Below, in pieces: positions 13,950 through 58,596 of a stretch of 64,000 bases of DNA (its first letter is position 1; each line of letters begins with the position of its first letter). Source of the DNA: Centroberyx gerrardi (taxonomy: Eukaryota; Chordata; Actinopteri; Beryciformes; Berycidae); NCBI RefSeq assembly GCF_048128805.1, contig NC_136004.1, positions 18,846,185 to 18,910,184 of the forward strand. The letters are read 5' to 3'. Below the pieces are notes generated by a model. It saw nothing but the letters and a program-made list of their open reading frames with translations. It had not been told where the DNA came from and made no database searches. The position numbers and the translations under genes are program-made.

Positions 13950-14486
13950 TCTGGTGCTCTCTCTACAATCAGTCTACTATCTTATTAGCACTTACAATCG
14001 ATTGTTATGGGTCAAATATTGTAGTGAGCAAAGGCATATAAGATAAACTGATCAGGAAAAGAGGCTCTAATGGCAAAGAGCTATAGTAGCCTACTCCCAC
14101 AATACATTTTAGAATATAACACATCAAAAATGCAAGTCATTATAGTGATACCGTAGGAGATAAAAAATTGCCTTAGGTCATTATAAATTCACTAGAGTAC
14201 CACAGACACAAACGTCCCTATAGTGATTTTTTCACAAGAATCTCAAATTCAGTTCAATTCCGGCCCATTTGAACTGAATTCACTCTTAAATTAAATGTTG
14301 AATTGGTTGATTTACCTGCGGACTAGAGCTGAAGGTTTAGACATTATTTTTGCATTTCATTGTTCAAAGAGTTCAAATAGAAGGAGATTGGCAACTACAA
14401 GAAGATGAGAAGCAGTTTTAGAAGACGCGTTTTTTTGTTTTTTTTAAAGAGATGTAGAAGAAAGGGTCATTCCTTGGTGTACCTAC

Positions 14487-14794
14487 CTTTAGAGACACTC
14501 AGAAACTCCCGTCAGAGGAAACCTGCATGTGCGCTTCAACCTGGGAAAACGAGCAGCTGACTTGGACTTACTCTCCGTTCATTCATAAGCGGTGTGAAAG
14601 CGAAGGTGAGAAACAAGTCTTCGGTCTGTCCCACCGGTGTTCCCACAGTCTGAGCTTCTGCAACACCGCACACTTCACTGCCCGAGCATCCTTTCAGTCT
14701 TTCCTGGTGGTGCGTCTGACCAAATCCTCAAGCTCTTCCTACAGGAGGGCCAGTATTTGTTTGTTTGAGGTTACAGCGACCTCTGTTGGACACA
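14487..14794 (-). other. arhgef28: Possible 5' noncoding exon and promoter side of arhgef28
   Basis: A good minus-strand donor (AAAG followed by GTAGGT) ends at 14487, and the first coding exon at 13329 is preceded by a strong acceptor, so a noncoding first exon here is likely. The upper limit is a guess, set by a MITE that begins at 14797. There is no coding evidence. Confidence 0.3.
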
Positions 14795-14796
14795 TA

Positions 14797-14882
14797 CGGA
14801 AGAGGATTAGGGCCACGTGAAGAAAAAAGTCAGAATTCTAACTTGAAACTCAGATTTTTCACGTGACCTTAATCCTCTTCTG
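14797..14882. mobile_element. Short palindromic MITE next to the arhgef28 5' exon
   Basis: 86 bp flanked by TA on both sides. The arms CGGAAGAGGATTAGGGCCAC and its near reverse complement at the right end each include CACGTG. The TA flanks point to a mariner/Tc1-type origin. Confidence 0.6.
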
Positions 14883-15536
14883 TAGAAACAGATAACCCAG
14901 TGAGTCGTTACTTTACGGCCTATGGTTACAACCCACATGTAGTACAATTCATCCCTGAAGTAAACAATCCGAGGCCGTTAAAGCTATTATTGTTATATGG
15001 CATTATCAGTGCAAATTTACAGACAGTTTTTTCATTCATTTTTCAAACTTATGATCATTCACCAGTTCCAATATTATAAAGATTTATTAGTCTACAAAAC
15101 AGACGTTGGAAAATGCAAATCATATCAAAATACAAAGTAGATATCGACTGATGGATATCACACAGACACACACAACATTTACAGTGGAAAGTGTAATTAC
15201 AAGACTTCCAGTAAAAACAGTGCCTCGCTTCACATCCATATATCCAGAGATTCTTTATACATAAATGTATGTATACATTAAGAACATATTCCTCTTTGTT
15301 GCCCAATGTGTTTTGAGTCATTAAAACACCCCAGGTACCAGAGGTTTGTTTCCTGTCTCTTAAAACCTGTACCAAAATGTTTCTGCTTTGAGTTGAAGTC
15401 CAGATGATGGCTGTAGCCTCCTGTCTTGAAGGTTTCTATCAGTTGTCAGTTGTTCTTTGCTGGGCTGATGTTCTAATAAGAGGTTTCAGAGGCACTCTCA
15501 TCCCCTATAAAGCAGGTTCCCCCCCCCCTAGAGGCC

Positions 15537-18500
15537 TCAGGTGGCCTGAAGCGGGGCACTTGTGTCTCCCTGAGCCAGGCCATTGGGTCTGCTGATGCCA
15601 GAGCATGGCACCTCTTTCCTAGGGAGGGAGGAGGTGAACATCGTGTCCAGCATTCCCAGCACCTCCAGCAGGTCCTGCTGGTAGTCGATCTCTCTCTCCA
15701 GCAGCTCCTGCAGACGCATCAGCTGTCGGTCCACTACTGGTGACTGTCCGATTACCGACTGATAGATGTCAAGGATCAACTCAGTCGCTGTTACCAGGAC
15801 AGGGGCAAACCTGGGGTCAACCAAATTCCTGGACAAGAAAAGGGGAAAAAACAAAAATAGTTTCAGTCAGCATGTGAACAAATGTGGCCACACACACATC
15901 CAATAAGACATCATGTCACCTTTTGGAAAGGTGTGCATGCTGGGTAACAAGGTGTTTTCTGAGTCTTACCCTATGAGGAAGTTGAGCAACTGGGAGAGCG
16001 TCTGTTCATCTCTTCCTGCCAGAGCATTCTTCAACGTTCCTCTTCGATCCAGCTCCTTCATCACAGCAACTGTGATCTCTGGCTTTCTAAATCTTGTCCA
16101 CGTCTAGAAACAAAATAGAAATATCTATTGGTATATAAAACATTGCTAAAAGCATGATATTACTAACTATCCAAATTGTTTATCAGTTGATGGATGAGGA
16201 CCACTCAAGAGAATCACTCTAGGGATCATCACTTGAGTTGCCCTCCAGCTCCCAACATTCAGCATAACCAACACTAGCCCTTCCACTTAGTTAAATTCAG
16301 CAATAAAGAAGTCACATGATATTTGAAATACATACCTCCAGAGCTGTATCCAAAGCCTTGGATACATTGAACTTCTTGAGCTGCTTGTCATATTTGGCCA
16401 AATGCTGTTTTACTGGCTTACTGACCAGATAATCATCCTGGAAAAAGATGCATATCACAACAATGGAAGAGGGAAACAAGCAATAAATTCAAAATGAAGC
16501 GAAAAATGAACAAACATAACATAACAAATATATAGGCATTGGCTGTTGTCAGACAGTTTGAGATCATCATTAGTTGCATTCAGTCGATGGATCACTCAGG
16601 GAATAATCACTCAACAGCCTTAAACCGTTCACCTCAGCTACACAACGGCACTGAATGTAATCTTAGTTCCTTGCCTGTTTGGGGACGTAGTTCTTCCCTT
16701 TCACAAAAACACGATATGCCGGTCGCCGCTTCTGTTGGCCTGAGATTTCCTTCGTCTCCTCGGGGCTTTTCCTGTGTTTGACACTCAAAACACCGTTGGT
16801 CATCCCAACGACTATGGACTCATCATCCGGCTGAGAAGACAGACAACCTCAAAGTTAGTTTTACAGTCTCATCAGGAATCTCCCTGAAGTGCAGCGAGCA
16901 GGTCCGAAAACGTGGTGCGGTTACGGATGCCGATTTGAACTTCCAAGGTGACATTAACAGCAGCATCACTGGAAAAGCTTTCAATCATCAAACATTTCTG
17001 AAGTCACAGTTTTTTTTTCTATTACAGACTCTTAAAAACTTGTGCACATCTTTATTACAGGTAGATGAGACTATAGTAATGGCCTCTTCTCAGATCTTTT
17101 GAAAAGGTATTTTGTCTTAACTAGGACAAGAAACATGAATACATGACATCTAGATGCAGGTGGCATGAGTGAAAACTGTACCTCCTGATTCACTGGATTA
17201 AAAACACATTTTTTATCCAATATCAATGTACTGAAAATGCCAGAATGTTATACAGACGACCGATAATATAAACCAATCACAGGAAATGTGACGATGCATC
17301 ACCATTTGGGCCTCTGTATGGTGTGAATGCAGCAGTTAGGGTTCATTTTCTCTTCACACACACATAGTATACAGAATGGTTTTAGCTGGGTTATAGCTAT
17401 TACTGTTAGGATAGTGCATGATTCTAACAAATGTGTGACAGGACAAAAGATTGTGCATAGATTGTGGTGGTGATAGAAATGTGTGAAACTATGAGTATTG
17501 AATGCCTACAGTAAAATATGCCTCTTGTCAGCTGATATTCAGCAGCAGCACATGGTGTTCTGGAAACACTACACTCTTGTACCGACGGCTATAAAAAAAA
17601 GATGGGTCTCATGTCAACACCAAGAGGAAAGGGTGTAGTGTTTCATCTATTTTTCATGAAATCTCTGGAAATATTGGATATTTTTGTTGGCTGCTGCAGA
17701 AATTGAATCTTTGCCTTTCCAGTCACAGGGACGGTTTCTCTAATCGCTACTCCCTCTTACATTTTAAATATCATCCAGGTCTTCAAATATTCATTATTGT
17801 TCACAGATAATAATTTCATGCAAAGACAGGTAGTATTTAATTTCTTACAGCCAAACCCAGACTAAGGATGGAGGCAGCGTAGTCAAAGTTGTGGACGACT
17901 TTATAGTTGGTTGTGTTGTACACCTTCACATGCCTGCAAAGACAAACAGAAGCTCTATATTAGATCAGACTACTATTAAAGCTCTTATGAAATACAGTGT
18001 TTAACAGTCACAATGGAGATAACTACAGTTTCTGTTATGTTTTTCCTCTTTTGTCCGCCATCTGTCACACACACATATACAGTATATATATAGCACAAAC
18101 CTGTCCAGAGAGGCTGACAGCAGTCTCTGTCCGTTGCTGCTGAGACACAAACAGGTGACAGTTTTGTGATGGTTCTTCAGCGACACCAGAGGCTGGCCTC
18201 CTTTCAGCAGATCCCACACTTTCACATAGCGGCCCCCTGAAAAGAGAAGAGAAGAGAAATAAAATAACGAGGGCTGTTGTTAAAGTCCTCAGTTGCCGAA
18301 GAGAATTTGGGATATTTTTAATGAGTTTCTATATAGAGTAATCTTTTGGAAAAAAATATGGGGAAAATCTAAAGTGATCTTTGTGCATGATTGCATTAAT
18401 TTGCAGGGAGGCAATAGTGTAGGAAAAACAATTTTACCTTTTTTCCCCAGATTAAAGTCACAATGAAACAAAAATGTTTTCCATATCACAGCATACATCT

Positions 18501-21500
18501 ATTTTACAATAAATACCAAAAAAGTATACATTTTTTTTTATCTTCTTGTATTTTTAGATCAAAATCCCATTACTTTTACGTCCTAAAAAAATGGCGGATT
18601 TTTTGCGGGCTATTCAATCCTCCCTCCACCCTTCCCATCATATAATTCTTGCCACTTCACAACTTTCAAAGTTAATCTCATTTGTGTGTGTGTGTGTGGT
18701 CTGACGATCGGTTAGCACCAGTTTTACTGAGGAGGGAAGGAAGGAATCCTCACTCAGCTGTTAACGTGAAGTGCGCTGACTGAACATAATATGTTTGAAT
18801 GGCGCCTACCTGCTGAGACGAGGAGTCCCTCTGAGGGATACAGCAGCAGACTCTCCACTGGGTGGCCGTGGTCCATGCTCATCACACTCTTATCCACTCT
18901 GGCATCAAACAGCTTCAGTGTGTGGTCATACGAGCCTAGACACACACAAACAGACCAAACTCCTTCACTCTGGTCCTCATTCCTTCATCTGCATTATCAC
19001 TGCCTCCAACAACTTAAAGGCAGTGTTGGGGACTATAGTACTCACATTACTTTTTGTTGTTACTAGTAATGAGTTAATTTTTCAATTCTTGTAATCCGTT
19101 ATTCATTACTTTTTTCATATTAGAACGTTGTTACTTTTATTTTTCTTTCACATCGTTTCATTTTCGTTAGCACAAATAGAAAAAGTAAATCCTGTGGCAT
19201 CTCATGCAGACAACATGCTGCTAATTGAAAAAAAAAAAAACACAATCCAAGTATGCTAGATAGTACAAATGAGATTGTACAGAGCAAACAGAGCAAAAGT
19301 CTTGCACTGCATTTTAAAAAATGTATCAACAACACACTTGACAGCACAAGCCATTTTGCTACGGCATGTTTCTGAAGTGGGTAACGCAGAAGTACTCTCA
19401 ACAAGTTACTTTTAATAAAGAGTAACTTCCTCACATAATTAGTTTGTTTTTATGGTAAGTAAGTAACACTGTAATGTAAAGTACCTAATTAGTTTTAAAA
19501 GTAAATGAGTACTTCAACTAAAATACAATGCAGATTCATTATGGACATAAATGCAAATATTATTGCACAAATTTGCTTGGTTTGACAGTTACCAAGATTC
19601 AATAAGTTTGAATTTGTCATTAGTGTGATGTCCAGAGAACAATCATTCCATGTAGTCAGTTTATACAAAATAGCATCAGCTAGAGCCTCACTGACTGATG
19701 TGTGGAAATAAATTATTAAGTTAATGTATATACCAAATACAGAGAGTAGGGTTTTGTAGTTATTACAAACAAAGAAACACAACCAGATATCTAGTGAACT
19801 AAAGCTAGCTTAATTTAGCATTGACACCATACAAATTATTTAGCTTCTATCTCACCGGTAATGAAGAGATCTCTGTTGAGTTTGCTTGTGGTGCCACAGC
19901 GGATGTAATCGGTGTGCTCCTGGTAGCAGGTGAGCTCAGTGGAGTTGGGGATGTCCCAAAGTCGACAGGTGTAGTCGTCTGACCCTGTGAGGATCTGGTA
20001 ACGGTCTGAGGTGAAGTCTGTTACATGTACGGCCCTGATGGGAAAGAACCAGACAAAACAGTTCAGGACAGTTCAGTCTCATAACCACACGTTTGTCAGT
20101 CAGTTTGACAGTTGGCAGGAACAGGTTGTCAGAATTATTGAGATCATCATAATATTCAGTCGATGGATCACTCAAGTAATCATCACTCAACCTGCTGTAC
20201 ACTCCCTTCAATACAAAAAAAAAAAAAGAAGCTCAAGAAGACCCACACAGCCAGTCAAAAGTGAGTGAAGAGGAGGAAAAGGTGTTATAGAGACACCGAC
20301 AGGGGGCACTGACTACTGTAAAAACACCAACAAAATGTTTTTAAAAACAAAAGTAAAAAAATTAAAGTGATGTTTTTGTATGCAAGGAAGCCCTGCTCCT
20401 GTTTCTTCTTGTTTGCTCTGCCACTTTTGGGCCCTTAAACTTTACTGGCGAACACCCTTCCGCACTCCCAAAAGACTCTTCATTCAGTTTGTTACATTTG
20501 GCATGTGAGCTCTACTACTAAACAACATCAGCCAGTAGCCCAGGACACCTACTTTGTGTGACCTTTGAACATCCTGAGTGCCACTTTGCCACTGACATCG
20601 AACAGCCGCACCACAGAGTCCTCGCATCCTGCCACCAGCAGCTGGCCGTCTGAGCGGAACCTCCCAGAGTACGCAGTGTCCTTAAAACGTGTAAATGTCT
20701 TCACCGGCTCCTGGGAGAACGGCCCGTAAATGTGGATCTGTAGAGAAGACAGTGTTAGAATGAGAAGAAATCTCCAACTCAAACTGATATTCCATTGCTT
20801 CCATGTTCATCATATACTGGCTTGGTAGATTGGTTAATTGGGAGTCTATTGAAGTCTTGAAGACACCTTGTACATTTTCATCCAGCCCTACCAACCTGAA
20901 CAAAAACATAACATATGACTTATATCAGGTAGGATATTCCTGCCACACATTTGAACATGGGTAACCCAATCGGAAAGATAAAATGCTTTTCTAAATGACT
21001 GTACTGTACATAGGTTTACTGTACATATCTTAACTCCAGTTGAGGTAAATCTTGGGAAACAAACCAAACTAGTGCAATACTTTTCTGTTCAGCAGATTGC
21101 TTTGCATTGTTTTGAATGTGTTTTATGGAGAGCACCGCCTATTCTACCTTGAAAGGAGGGTCTGCTTTCTACAATACAGCAACAGCTTGCACAAGATATG
21201 ATTAACAATGTATTCCTTTAAAGAAAATGCACTCTACCAAATCTTGTATATTCCACGACTCACTGGAAACCAGTATTTTGTACTGGGTGAATCCTTATTG
21301 AATTAAGTGAACATAACTGAACTAAATTCATACAAAAAGAAGCCAACATACTCTTGTGAATGCTGTCACAGCGTAGTTATGTGGAGCCACAGGGGAGAAG
21401 TCTATGTTTGTGACCGCTCCAAATTCTTTAATCTGGACTGGAGCCTGTGAAACGAGCAACAAGGACACAGTAAATTACAATCAATGAGAATTAAAAGAGG

Positions 21501-21674
21501 AATTACTGGCAACTCCAAACATCAAACTTAGTATGTAACATTTCTTGGCAACTGTTACCTCTAAACAACGTACAGCAAGCTCACCTTGTAGTTTTTCCAG
21601 TACAATGTGTCCTGTGTGACTTTCTCTCCCAGTTTAGGATAGACTTGGATTTTCGTAGGTTTGAATGAGGCCAT
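15537..21674 (-). CDS. utp15: U3 small nucleolar RNA-associated protein 15 (SSU processome WD40 protein)
   Basis: Eleven coding exons: 21674-21585, 21444-21352, 20737-20553, 20034-19856, 18935-18810, 18236-18101, 17933-17849, 16830-16675, 16437-16336, 16103-15970 and 15828-15537. They sum to 1578 bp (525 aa; human about 518). It starts [19 protein letters not shown], followed by WD40 blades (for example [27 protein letters not shown] and LLSASLDR) and the conserved UTP15 C-terminal domain ([41 protein letters not shown]). UTP15 belongs to the t-UTP/UTP-A subcomplex of the nucleolar small-subunit processome and is needed for pre-rRNA transcription and 18S processing (family knowledge). The intron after 16675 has a GC donor (CAG then GCAAGG). 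Two introns carry box C/D snoRNAs. The gene is divergent from btf3. Confidence 0.96.
16183..16235 (-). ncRNA. Decayed snoRNA relative in a third utp15 intron
   Basis: On the minus strand AAGTGATGATCC (C-box like) is followed by CTTGAGTG, then a diverged ATCCATCAACTGA that resembles the D' guide plus CTGA of copies A and B but contains extra bases. No C' box, second CTGA or closing stem is seen. It is probably a non-functional copy. Confidence 0.35.
16541..16619 (-). ncRNA. Box C/D snoRNA in utp15 intron, copy A (SNORD71-like, 5.8S Um14 guide)
   Basis: On the host strand a perfect 8-bp terminal stem (GGCTGTTG / CAACAGCC) encloses a C-like box GTGATTA (one base off RTGATGA), D' CTGA, C' ATGATGA and D CTGA, 79 nt in all. 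Upstream of D' lies GAGTGATCCATCG, which can form 13 pairs (one G-U) with CGGUGGAUCACUC near the 5' end of vertebrate 5.8S rRNA; the D'+5 rule then points to U14. In mammals that methylation is assigned to SNORD71 (from memory), whose host gene there is different. Spacing to the intron ends (about 55 bases to the exon at 16675) suits intronic processing. The weak C box makes this copy less certain than copy B. Confidence 0.75.
16559..16560. other. Marker: start of the sequence shared by the two utp15 snoRNAs
   Basis: From here rightwards the plus strand (to about 16614) matches 20139-20191 with small gaps. This shared stretch first looked like a dispersed repeat and is explained by the paired C/D snoRNAs. 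Confidence 0.4.
16872..16968 (-). other. Unidentified coding-like segment inside a utp15 intron
   Basis: It is GC-richer than the surrounding intron. Read on the minus strand after a plausible acceptor (TTTTCCAG), one frame runs for about 31 codons (beginning [12 protein letters not shown]) to a TGA at 16874-16872. The phase does not fit the preceding utp15 exon (which ends in phase 0), so it is not a simple alternative utp15 exon. It could be a captured exon, an ancient repeat or chance. Confidence 0.2.
19018..19505. repeat. Probable dispersed repeat in utp15 intron
   Basis: It opens with CAGTGTTGGGG and is full of TAACT/GTTAC words (for example ACTAGTAATGAG, TGTAATCCGTTATTCATTAC, AAGTAACTTCC). 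This is the composition of a widespread fish repeat family that starts CAGTGTTGGG. A clear right end was not found. Confidence 0.3.
20122..20194 (-). ncRNA. Box C/D snoRNA in utp15 intron, copy B (SNORD71-like, 5.8S Um14 guide)
   Basis: Canonical on the host strand: stem CAGGTTG / CAACCTG, box C GTGATGA, D' CTGA, C' ATGATGA, box D CTGA, 73 nt. It has the same D' guide as copy A (GAGTGATCCATCG), predicted to place a 2'-O-methyl on U14 of 5.8S rRNA. The region upstream of box D differs from copy A, so only the D' guide looks constrained. It lies in the intron between coding exons 3 and 4 of utp15. Confidence 0.82.
20370..20433. repeat. Second copy of the 9771-9836 repeat, in utp15 intron
   Basis: It shares about 65 bases with 9771-9836, with few differences, including GCAAGGAAGCCCTGCTCCTG and CTTTTGGGCCC. 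No inverted partner is seen nearby. Confidence 0.5.
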
Positions 21675-22210
21675 TTCTTTGCATTGATGTTTCCTCCCTG
21701 TCAAGATATGTTTTGTGTCTAGTTAGGTCGCATAAAGGGAAAACATTAGCAATAAAAAAATATTTAAAGATGACATTAAGGCTGATTGGTTAGCAAATAT
21801 TGATCCACAAGAACAGTCTAAAGAGAGAAAACATATCCATTTTATATCCATAACGCATTTCATGTTAATATTAGCACTATTAGCACAATAATAGCACCTC
21901 ATCAAACTCCCAGTACAAGTTTGCAATCCGTTATGGTACTTAGCACATTAGCTAGCTAACTAGTTCCTTCGAAACGGTGCGTATTCTTCACTTTGACTAC
22001 ACATATAGAGTTTAATAACGTGGAAAACGTCTACAGTCAATCATTCTCTTATAAAACGTTGAATTACAAAAGGTGCTTATCAGAAAGCAACAGCAGATCA
22101 CCAGACATCAGCCAACGTGTTCACTGCAGCAGAAGCTAGCCAACATGTTAGCTTGACGACGCAGGTTAGCTTATAACCTTAGCTACAAACTGTCGTCTGA
22201 TGATTCTCAC

Positions 22211-22345
22211 CTTTGAATCAGAAATTCCTGGAATACGGATTTAGTTACAGTGTCGCGTGATGAAATTAGATAAGATTGATGTTCGTTGCTAAAGTAAACC
22301 AAAAGTTGCTCATTTTAATGAGCTATCACGTTGCCCCTATGTGCA
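22211..22345 (-). other. utp15: Noncoding first exon of utp15 (upper limit uncertain)
   Basis: On the minus strand a donor (CAAAG followed by GTGAG) ends an exon at 22211. The matching acceptor lies just above 21697, 23 bases before the ATG. The transcription start must lie below the YY1/ETS-type motifs at 22352-22380. Confidence 0.55.
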
Positions 22346-22351
22346 CAGGAG

Positions 22352-22380
22352 GCCGCCATATTGTAACGTAACTACTTCCG
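22352..22380. promoter_or_regulatory. YY1-like and ETS-like motifs in the utp15-btf3 divergent promoter
   Basis: Positions 22352-22362 read GCCGCCATATT, the reverse complement of a YY1 core (AATATGGCGGC). ACTTCCG, an ETS-type site, follows at about 22374. Both are typical of TATA-less housekeeping promoters. They sit just upstream of utp15 and about 550 bp upstream of btf3 exon 1. Confidence 0.4.
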
Positions 22381-22898
22381 TTATGAAATGTACAACTTTA
22401 TTGTTCATTGAAACGGTACAATTTGCACATGTAGTGACAACTGTAACTAACAGCTAATAGCAATGAACATACCGATGTATTTGCTTTTTTTGCTCTCTGT
22501 AATAAAAATAACACAACTATCTTCAATTCATTTTCAGTTAACTAGAAATTAAAATATAGTTCACAGTATCATTAGATGTTGGAGATGAATTATGAATTGG
22601 TACGGTCTATGGTGTGGAGGTGTAATAAGTTGCTGAATATCACTCATACGAAATGAGAGCTGTTTCAAATCACTTCAGCCTCTTTTGACAAGGTTTCCAA
22701 AATATGATCTGATAACAACTTGCTCGTATTTATTAGAATATGCGCCCAATTTGTACTACAGGGTAGTCTCGTTCAAAGGAGTTTTTGCGGCCGGTCAGTA
22801 TTAAAACCGCCTGTCGTCCATCCATGTGACCAAAACCAAATGCACCTAGTGAGTGGTGGACTCAACCAGCCCGGCCCGTTAGCGACCTCAGTGCGTCA

Positions 22899-22966
22899 CT
22901 TCCTCTCTTCCCTCCTTTCTCCGAGCTTCCATCGACTGTGTGACCCGCGTGTTTACACACTCCCAG
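22899..22966 (+). other. btf3: Noncoding first exon of btf3 with pyrimidine-rich start
   Basis: A long pyrimidine tract at 22899-22920 precedes an exon that ends at a good donor (CCCAG then GTCAGT) at 22966. Such a tract is what a 5' TOP mRNA needs at its cap site; BTF3/NAC mRNAs are reported TOP mRNAs (family knowledge), so translation under mTOR control is an inference. Confidence 0.5.
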
Positions 22967-23849
22967 GTCAGTTCTGAGCTCTGCGCACTTTATAAGCTTT
23001 ATCTGGCTTATTAACGTTTTGTAAAGAAAGAGCTGCTTATTATTGCCCTGTATGCGCCCAAAGCACAAGGAAACTGTGGAGCATGCGTCTATGCTAGCCC
23101 CAAATTGTAGAGGCCTAACGGTTAGCTGTTTAGCTTGCTTGCTTGCTAACTGGCAGTTGTCAGATTTGTAAGTTAACACCCACGTTTCATAGCTTCCTAC
23201 CCGCTGAAAGATGATCAATGGTCCTAATTTGTAACAGCATACCCTTTCTTATTCCCCCAACACATCTATTCGTTATGGCATACCAGGAAAGGCAGGGTAT
23301 TGATAGTAGCCACCTTCCCCGATCCGTGCCGAAATTTCTTTGGAGAGAACTGGGTGAAACGGGGCGAGGTAGCTACTAACTTTAGCTGTCCACCTCTGCC
23401 TGGTTCCTGCACAACTTCAGTTGAGACTCAATTGACGAACAACGAGTGTGCAGCTATTTTAAGGCGTGTGGCAGCTGCAAATTCAGGGCGTCCGCTGTGC
23501 CAAAAGAAGTGGAAAGATTTTTGAGAGATTCATGTCTCGCGGATCATTACAGTTGCAAATGCGATAGAACAGCCCAGATAGCCTTTGGTGCAATTTTTGT
23601 CTTGGCGATAATCATAATCTCAATTGGTGTCTATGTAGATGCAGCCACTGACTAGATGGCAACTGTGTTGACCGTGGCTAGGGGAAACTTTGGGGTTTGC
23701 ATCTAGTGAGGATTCTTCCAGTAATTGATTGCCCGAATGTCATGCTACAAATGTCAGCCTACTGCTTCTTGTAACTAAAGTTGGTCTTGTGACAAGCGTT
23801 ATAATTGCAGATTTGTGTGCATCTGCTGTGTGTTTTGTTTGTGTGTCAG

Positions 23850-25757
<1,908 letters not shown>

Positions 25758-56515: not shown

Positions 56516-58596
56516 TTAGACAGCTGAGGTGTGATGATGAAGAAGCCACTACCCATGACATCTTAGCCAATGATCAGGCCGCCAATTTGTTCAGTTACTC
56601 TAATGATGATTTTTGTATCACAAAAACGATCTTTTCTATAAAGCTATATGGCATTTGACGTTGTATTTAGCTAATTTGTGGATAAAAGACAAAGTATGGA
56701 ATGTTGCAGTAAAATGCAACAACATTGCTAGTAGCCAACATAGGCTACAGTATCAGCGAAAAGACATCGATTCTTTCACTCTACGAATTTGAGAAGAGCC
56801 AAAATTGACAATGTAGGAAAGTTAAAATATTTCACAACAGTTAATTGACTGTTGATTACAACAGTCTGAGAACAATTTTGATACCTGAAAGTAGGCTAAA
56901 TAATGAAAATCTTAGTGTTTTTCTTCTCATTTTTTATTTTCAAAATAATTTTCTTTTCTTTCTTTTTTTCGAAAATAATTACACATTGTGACACATAAAA
57001 GCAAGGGTCAGTTATAACTTGATAATAATTTTGAATGTTTTAGTCAAGCTTATGTGCTCAGGGAAGAGATCTTTGTCAGGAATGCCTGCTTGGGGCATGT
57101 TGTCACATTGATTTCGGGGCATATTGTCATAACTCTCTGGTTGTTTGTTTTTGTTAGAAATAGCTTTAGATTCATTCTTTTCTGAACAAATATTATTTTT
57201 GTACTTTTGGTACCCACAAACCTTTGGCTTGTGTAGCAAGTGGCCTCTCTGCTAAATGTGTATATATTACGTGTACCTTAATACTGTATATCATAGTTAG
57301 GATCAGAATTTGTGTTTGTCTGTGCATCCCAGCCCAGGATGGTGAGGGAGTGATTACTTTACCTGGTGTGTGGTGGGTGACATGAAGTATGTTGTTTTCA
57401 ATACAAGAGTATGTTTTTCATGTTATTGTAGTATACTGTATATACTTAAGAGGAAATGGAATTGAGTGCAGAATCGCAGCACACTTGCCTATGTGACAAC
57501 ATGCCCTGTCATGTGTGACAGCAGTTCCAGATGTGGGGTGAGTTGTCACATGTTGCCAAGTGGTATTTCATCAGAAATAACTTTTGTTTCTAGTAAATTA
57601 TTCAAAATGTAAAAATGGCATTTTTTAGAAAAGACCTTAGACTATAAAAATGTAGGCTATATTGTAGCCTATCTCAGTAGTAAGGCACTGATGGGAAATA
57701 CACCAATGACATGCCCTGGTCCCCCCTAATATTGAAAAATTATAGACACCACAAGGCCAAGAAGTGACACCCAGGGGTGCAGCTAGTCAGTTTTACGTCC
57801 CATACTTGAGGTTTTTAGTTTCTTCTCCATTTAAAGTGTCTTTAATTATGCAATATTTAGTACATGAACAGTATTAGATGAAGTGTTTCTGTGTATCCAT
57901 TTTGAATGTGTTTCCTGATGTTTATTGTTGAATATTTTAAAAGCACAACTAGTTGCAGCTATTAGGCTGCCTAAAATGTTGCTGAAGTTCTTATGATGAC
58001 TCATAAATTTAAAAATAATCCATACAATCCATTTTATTTTCATTCCAGCTATAATTTTGTCAGGGTGATATATATATATTTTTTTTTTGTGTGGAGGTCT
58101 CTGAATTAAACTGAAATATTTTCAGTTGATGGACACAGGATTTTGGAATTAAACTAAAATATTGGTAGGCCTATTGCTTCAAATATTGATATCAGCATAT
58201 ATCGGCAATATCATTTATTCAATGGTTAAATTCCATATTTTCAGCAGTGATATACTTTGGCTCATATTGAATAGTTTCGTGAGTTAAATATCAAGCAAAC
58301 ATTGTGAAATTTTACTTCCCATCAAAAACAGCCAGGAATTAATTGATATAGGGGGGGAAATAGCCAGTAAGGTTTGTCAAGAGATTTAATTTCTTAATAG
58401 ACAGATTTCACAAAAGGCAGCAGGACTAACATTGAGCACGGCATCCTGCAGTGCTACAGCACGGCATGCCGAGCTCAAACTGGAATATAAGACAAGAGCC
58501 CAAGTTCACGATTTCAATTGGCACCTTTGAAGAAGATGAGTTCTGTAGAAGATGATATTCTGTGCTCAAAACATATAAAAGTATATATCAAGGCAA

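Follow-up and report, generated by a model that had tools for sequence, protein, structure and literature searches.

SNORD71-type box C/D snoRNA copies in two introns of utp15 in Centroberyx gerrardi as predicted guides of 5.8S rRNA U14

Two box C/D small nucleolar RNA (snoRNA) elements, named here copies A and B, are found in introns of the gene utp15 in a stretch of 64,000 nucleotides (nt) from the fish Centroberyx gerrardi (contig NC_136004.1, positions 18,846,185 to 18,910,184; the whole of it is called the window below). The explanation that best accounts for them, to which we give a probability of about 0.86, is that they are paralogous SNORD71-type snoRNA genes duplicated into utp15 while a copy was retained in ap1g1, and that they are predicted guides of nucleotide U14 of the 5.8S ribosomal RNA (rRNA). 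The case is one of birth and death of a known snoRNA. The features on which the argument is built are the following, with pairing predicted from the 5' end of vertebrate 5.8S.

15537..21674, minus strand: coding region of the host gene utp15, 11 coding exons, 525 amino acids
20035..20552, minus strand: utp15 intron 3 (GT-AG), host of copy B
16438..16674, minus strand: utp15 intron 8 (GC-AG), host of copy A
16541..16619, minus strand: copy A, SNORD71-type box C/D snoRNA in utp15 intron 8 (RF00576 at 30.5 bits, descriptor scan, stem covariation)
20122..20194, minus strand: copy B, SNORD71-type box C/D snoRNA in utp15 intron 3 (RF00576 at 28.7 bits, descriptor scan, stem covariation)
16585..16597, minus strand: copy A guide, GAGTGATCCATCG, whose predicted partner is 5.8S nt 11-23 (U14 at +5)
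20161..20173, minus strand: guide of copy B, the same 13 nt as in copy A, with the same predicted pairing to vertebrate 5.8S

Architecture of the two elements and their host gene

Reading of the minus strand confirmed the coordinates, strand, boxes, stems and common guide given for the two elements in an earlier note on this DNA, and the observation of two C/D-type elements is real. Both carry the boxes C, D', C' and D in order within a closing stem, the arrangement that defines the box C/D class. In copy A the boxes read GTGATTA (C), CTGA (D'), ATGATGA (C') and CTGA (D), the closing stem has 8 bp, and the parts follow one another as GGCTGTTG-A-GTGATTA-TTCCC-TGAGTGATCCATCG-A-CTGA-...-ATGATGA-TCTCAAACTGT-CTGA-CAACAGCC. 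Copy B is laid out in the same way with every box canonical, box C included, and its closing stem CAGGTTG/CAACCTG comprises 7 Watson-Crick pairs, or 8 with one G-U pair when it is lengthened by one base per side.

The identity of the host as utp15, which had been proposed in the earlier note, was borne out by Pfam UTP15_C and WD40 matches and by PDB, where a UTP15 homolog (7mq8) matched best, and joining the exons at GT/GC-AG sites gave a frame of 525 residues in 11 coding exons, with copy A in intron 8 and copy B in intron 3. Both copies lie on the sense strand of utp15, 103 nt (A) and 87 nt (B) upstream of the 3' splice site, and the ap1g1 copy lies 101 nt upstream of its own. Intronic C/D snoRNAs are usually found about 70-100 nt from the 3' splice site, a spacing with which the three distances agree, two of them falling just beyond its upper end. 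As a separate observation, the donor of the snoRNA-hosting intron 8 appears to be of the uncommon GC type, CAG|GCAAGG (16669-16680, minus strand).

Proteins of ribosome making are encoded by many snoRNA host genes; utp15 is therefore a fitting host, and copies A and B are ordinary SNORD71-type box C/D guides in a host that fits. A similar arrangement is described in the parts of PMC2653536 that were available for the U57 homolog in NOL5A intron 9, where, as in utp15, each intron holds one snoRNA and the host works in rRNA maturation. No paper naming UTP15 as a snoRNA host gene was found in literature that was incomplete for snoRNA papers and databases, which is no proof of novelty.

Constraint, family assignment and predicted target

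A descriptor of the C/D architecture, composed after the sites were already known, allowed at most 1 mismatch in box C and at most 2 in C', and demanded CTGA boxes and a stem of at least 7 pairs. When it was run over both strands of the 64 kb, only copies A and B matched, the former with one box combination and the latter with two, and no match arose in 30 simulations of the minus strand under a first-order Markov model. The guide 13-mer occurs exactly 2 times in the window; with 2 mismatches allowed, shuffles held a mean of 0.68 matches, and 15 of 100 held at least 2. Across the genome, the exact 13-mer was found at 5 places (2 in the window and 1 each on contigs C1, C19 and C22), against 3 for the reversed control. 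Since the guide word is not rare in either the shuffle or the reversed controls, it proves little alone, and it is the box architecture that carries the case. The exact 13-mers on C19 and C22 were set aside as chance occurrences, having no box C in the 70 nt upstream and no CTGA directly after the word; a covariance model returned one weak match at the C22 site (13.4 bits, E 0.047 over 6,026 bases) and none at C19. As expected for elements of a vertebrate intron, the guide-plus-boxes pattern had no match in the prokaryote genome and viral contig collections.

The three copies, A, B and the one in ap1g1, were compared in a single alignment. Their closing stems are paired in 24 of 24 cells although 5 of the 8 pairs changed on both sides, so that the conserved stem pairing expected of the box C/D class is seen across these three sequences. 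Five doubly changed pairs were reached by 4 of 500 shuffles, and slid controls reached at most 2. Even between A and B alone, double changes are present at three stem pairs, with the pairing kept. Additionally, the predicted folds of A, B and the ap1g1 copy all contain the closing stem (z of -1.87, -2.30 and -3.18), and such folding by itself lends modest support, the z values of A and B being modest.

No letter differs among the three copies in the 14-nt TGAGTGATCCATCG or in the CTGA boxes D' and D. The loops and the D side do vary, and no other unchanged stretch is as long as the D' guide. The ap1g1 copy is the more divergent on the D side. It had been suggested in the earlier note that selection holds only the D' guide, a suggestion that is plausible but thin: A and B still agree at 7 of 11 D-side letters (9 of 13 with two gap columns counted), and the D side was compared only with the 5' 50 nt of 5.8S. 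In the core, identity was 53 of 64 columns between A and B, 45 of 66 between A and the ap1g1 copy, and 46 of 62 between B and the ap1g1 copy, and this makes A and B the closest pair.

In an Rfam search of positions 14000-24000 that used an E-value threshold, the best snoRNA family was SNORD71 (RF00576) for copy A (30.5 bits, E 0.0029) and for copy B (28.7 bits, E 0.0095); at copy B, snoR38 equalled SNORD71 in bits (28.7) but had an E-value of 0.29. Because they lie in utp15 and not in AP1G1, A and B are filed here as SNORD71-type paralogs rather than as the positional ortholog. SNORD71, or HBII-239, is the AP1G1-hosted guide of 5.8S U14; the guide word of its Rfam consensus is that of A and B, the predicted target nucleotide is the same, and its D half resembles that of copy A. 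Unlike it, A and B have utp15 as host, occur as two copies, score under the gathering cut-off and differ in the outer pairs of the closing stem. The Rfam entry RF00576 itself labels SNORD71 as HACA-box despite its C and D boxes and SNORD name, apparently an error in the database.

Pairing was computed with the 5' end of 5.8S as it is known in vertebrates and not with that of this species. Against it, the D' guide pairs over 15 nt when G-U is counted, and in each of the three copies U14 lies opposite the fifth guide nucleotide counted from box D', as the SNORD71 relation of guide and target demands; the duplex energies were -26.5 (A) and -24.5 (B) kcal/mol. The same 5.8S end, over its first 50 nt, gave weak pairing with the D side (-4.9, -1.7 and -3.2 kcal/mol). 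Together, the Rfam family and the +5 pairing with the vertebrate sequence support what had been predicted earlier, namely SNORD71-type box C/D guides with 5.8S U14 as target. A 5.8S pattern had no match in viral contigs. In the accessible parts of PMC12288042, SNORD71 is stated to guide Um14, and the SNORD71-knockout cells of earlier work to have ribosomes without the U14 methyl group; for zebrafish 5.8S, three 2'-O-methyl sites are given in a review, those parts of it that were available not naming the sites (PMC8393311).

According to the proposed mechanism, each snoRNA would be freed from its spliced utp15 intron and would assemble with fibrillarin and the rest of the C/D proteins; its D' guide would then direct 2'-O-methylation of 5.8S rRNA U14. 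Transcription, processing and U14 methylation in this species are thus presumed from the sequence, and expression of host and guide may be coupled.

The ap1g1 copy, decayed relics and the duplication

The third copy is a SNORD71 match on contig C1 (26.0 bits). Its boxes read ATGATGA (C), CTGA (D'), GTGTTGA (C') and CTGA (D), and one of the 8 bp of its stem is a G-U pair. Its host is ap1g1, as indicated by a best PDB match to AP-1 gamma-1, and it lies in the intron after the eleventh coding exon, as counted on tblastn pieces. The available parts of PMC2653536 place the chicken U14 guide (HBII-239) in intron 11 of AP1G1, and this agrees with the earlier note, in which the mammalian guide is hosted by a gene other than utp15. 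The same parts describe chicken GGgCD1, which resembles A and B in targeting 5.8S U14 with a 13-nt 5' guide and differs from them in its length of 98 nt, its single listed isoform and its location in AP1G1 intron 11 (PMC2653536). Since a SNORD71-like copy is kept in coding intron 11 of ap1g1, the intron number of the chicken gene, both utp15 copies are additional, and in the simplest reading the ap1g1 site is the old one; which way the duplication ran, and how old it is, we infer. The guide had been described as moved or duplicated into utp15; duplication is supported and a move is not, because ap1g1 coding intron 11 still holds a copy.

Segmental duplication of whole introns was considered and rejected: the flanks are dissimilar, the fraction of shuffles (500 each) that scored at least as high being 0.508 downstream and 0.992 upstream. 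Intron flanks that are not shared fit a copying of the snoRNA unit alone. The utp15 copies would thus have been born by duplication of the guide still present in ap1g1, and other copies would have decayed. Two candidates for such decayed copies were found.

16183..16241, minus strand: probable decayed third copy in utp15 intron 9 (alignment score 36, covariance model 18 bits)
Contig C1, about 16547895-16547949: probable decayed relic in ap1g1 intron 12 (alignment to the A and B cores)

Both relics were scored under a self-chosen scheme and had first been spotted by eye, which makes the chance estimates given here somewhat generous, and both are unmentioned in the earlier note, to whose reader ap1g1 intron 12 was not visible. 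The 10 coding introns of utp15 were aligned with the A and B cores under this scheme, the snoRNA being masked in the two host introns. Intron 9 scored 36, a value that none of 1000 shuffle sets made from the eight introns without a copy and none of 1044 real tiles attained (best tile 26.5). This relic aligns over 32 nt between box C and D' with a single mismatch. It is interrupted by insertions of 3, 10 and 6 nt, of which the 6-nt one splits the guide, and by eye it shows neither a closing stem nor a box D. A covariance model made from the three copies ranked intron 9 fourth, after those copies, among 103,601 bases (18 bits, with a rough E of 0.046). Rfam gave no SNORD71 match at this place, which counts against the relic, and its best snoRNA match there was SNORD82 (18.3 bits, E 0.31). 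That intron 9 holds a third functional snoRNA was considered and discarded, since with its guide split by an insertion and no stem seen the copy looks dead.

The fragment in ap1g1 intron 12 aligns to B at 42 and to A at 39, but to the ap1g1 intron 11 copy at only 16, and its controls reached 32.5 (best of 2000 shuffles) and 35 (best of 1296 real tiles). Support from the covariance model is weak (10.1 bits, E 6.3), and another match in the window, at 56847-56866 (13.3 bits, E 0.85), outranks this fragment. With this A/B-like relic in ap1g1 and the relic in intron 9 of utp15, copies of the A/B type probably once existed in both genes. Weak alignments were also obtained in utp15 introns 4 (27.0) and 7 (22.5), the former slightly above the best 232-nt tile (26.5) in an intron that is 920 nt long; relic status is unproven for both.

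Weighing of explanations, significance and neighbouring features

Several points weigh against reading A and B as working SNORD71-type paralogs. At the gathering threshold Rfam listed nothing in the whole window, and A, B and the ap1g1 copy all lie under the SNORD71 gathering score of 34 (30.5, 28.7 and 26.0 bits), a threshold that is a curator's cut-off and not a biological trait. In a genome-wide search with the SNORD71 family, copy A had an E-value of 0.053 and the ap1g1 copy 0.98, copy B was not listed in a search that scored 55 of 84,794 candidates, and sub-threshold matches also came from prokaryotes, in 5 of the 14 genomes that served as controls. The stem covariation test comprised three sequences only, and the ap1g1 copy among them was first picked by the exact 13-mer, so that the identity of its guide is in part built in, though this copy was returned by the Rfam search too. 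A 5.8S pattern search in this assembly gave 0 matches, and the target sequence is hence not one taken from this species. Finally, the box C of copy A is imperfect, with one mismatch to RTGATGA, at a position that we take to pair with box D.

This imperfect box C, together with the probable decayed copies of the same family nearby, would suit one or both utp15 copies being recent, unexpressed pseudogenes, with all U14 guiding left to the ap1g1 copy. We consider this unlikely, because three stem pairs are altered on both arms between A and B and yet still form, and because the guide and D boxes stayed intact while the loops changed, neither of which is expected from drift after loss. The utp15 copies might instead mainly serve a target other than 5.8S U14, for example through the D side, with the D' guide a leftover; TCTCAA after C' is common to A and B, as are the 7 D-side letters, and the Rfam consensus has ACUCAaa at about that place. 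Such a role is decidedly improbable, given that the longest unchanged stretch of the three copies is the D' guide and that the D side varies and pairs weakly with the 5.8S end.

Relocation of the guide from ap1g1 to utp15 would agree with the higher SNORD71 scores of the utp15 copies (30.5 and 28.7 against 26.0 bits), but it is scarcely credible with a copy in ap1g1 coding intron 11 that has the boxes, the 8-bp stem, the guide and the distance of 101 nt to the 3' splice site. Chance C/D-like sequences in two introns draw on the guide 13-mer not being rare by itself, as seen in the shuffles (15 of 100 with at least 2 when up to 2 mismatches are allowed) and in the genome (5 against 3 reversed); against two full architectures that share 53 of 64 core columns, 0 descriptor matches in 30 simulations and the stem covariation result, their probability is negligible.

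Read as duplicated SNORD71-type paralogs, the utp15 pair offers a clear example of snoRNA birth and death, in which a guide with one target keeps a copy in its usual host, two extra copies carry both-arm stem changes and are still paired, and two probable relics lie in the same two hosts. Tentatively, and with more doubt than confidence, this lineage may have three working U14 guide genes. Two of them would be driven by the promoter of a gene for ribosome biogenesis, and methylation could then follow ribosome production, for example in the egg, apart from the supply by ap1g1; on this view the relics would mean that the guide was repeatedly gained and lost between these two hosts. As loss of SNORD71 is reported to alter ribosome function in cultured cells, according to the parts of PMC12288042 that could be consulted, it makes sense to test how the dosage of the guide matters. 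Additionally, the Rfam SNORD71 cut-off misses all three copies found, and annotation at that cut-off would omit them.

Other features were observed around utp15. An inverted repeat with 30-nt arms, 87% complementary and 30 nt apart, is located at 14795-14884, and the weak Rfam match there to the microRNA family MIR2871 (32.6 bits against 99) is probably due to chance. At 24793-25035, on the plus strand, an open frame with a NAC-domain match (PF01849) is probably a btf3 exon, and its position near utp15 fits human synteny with BTF3.

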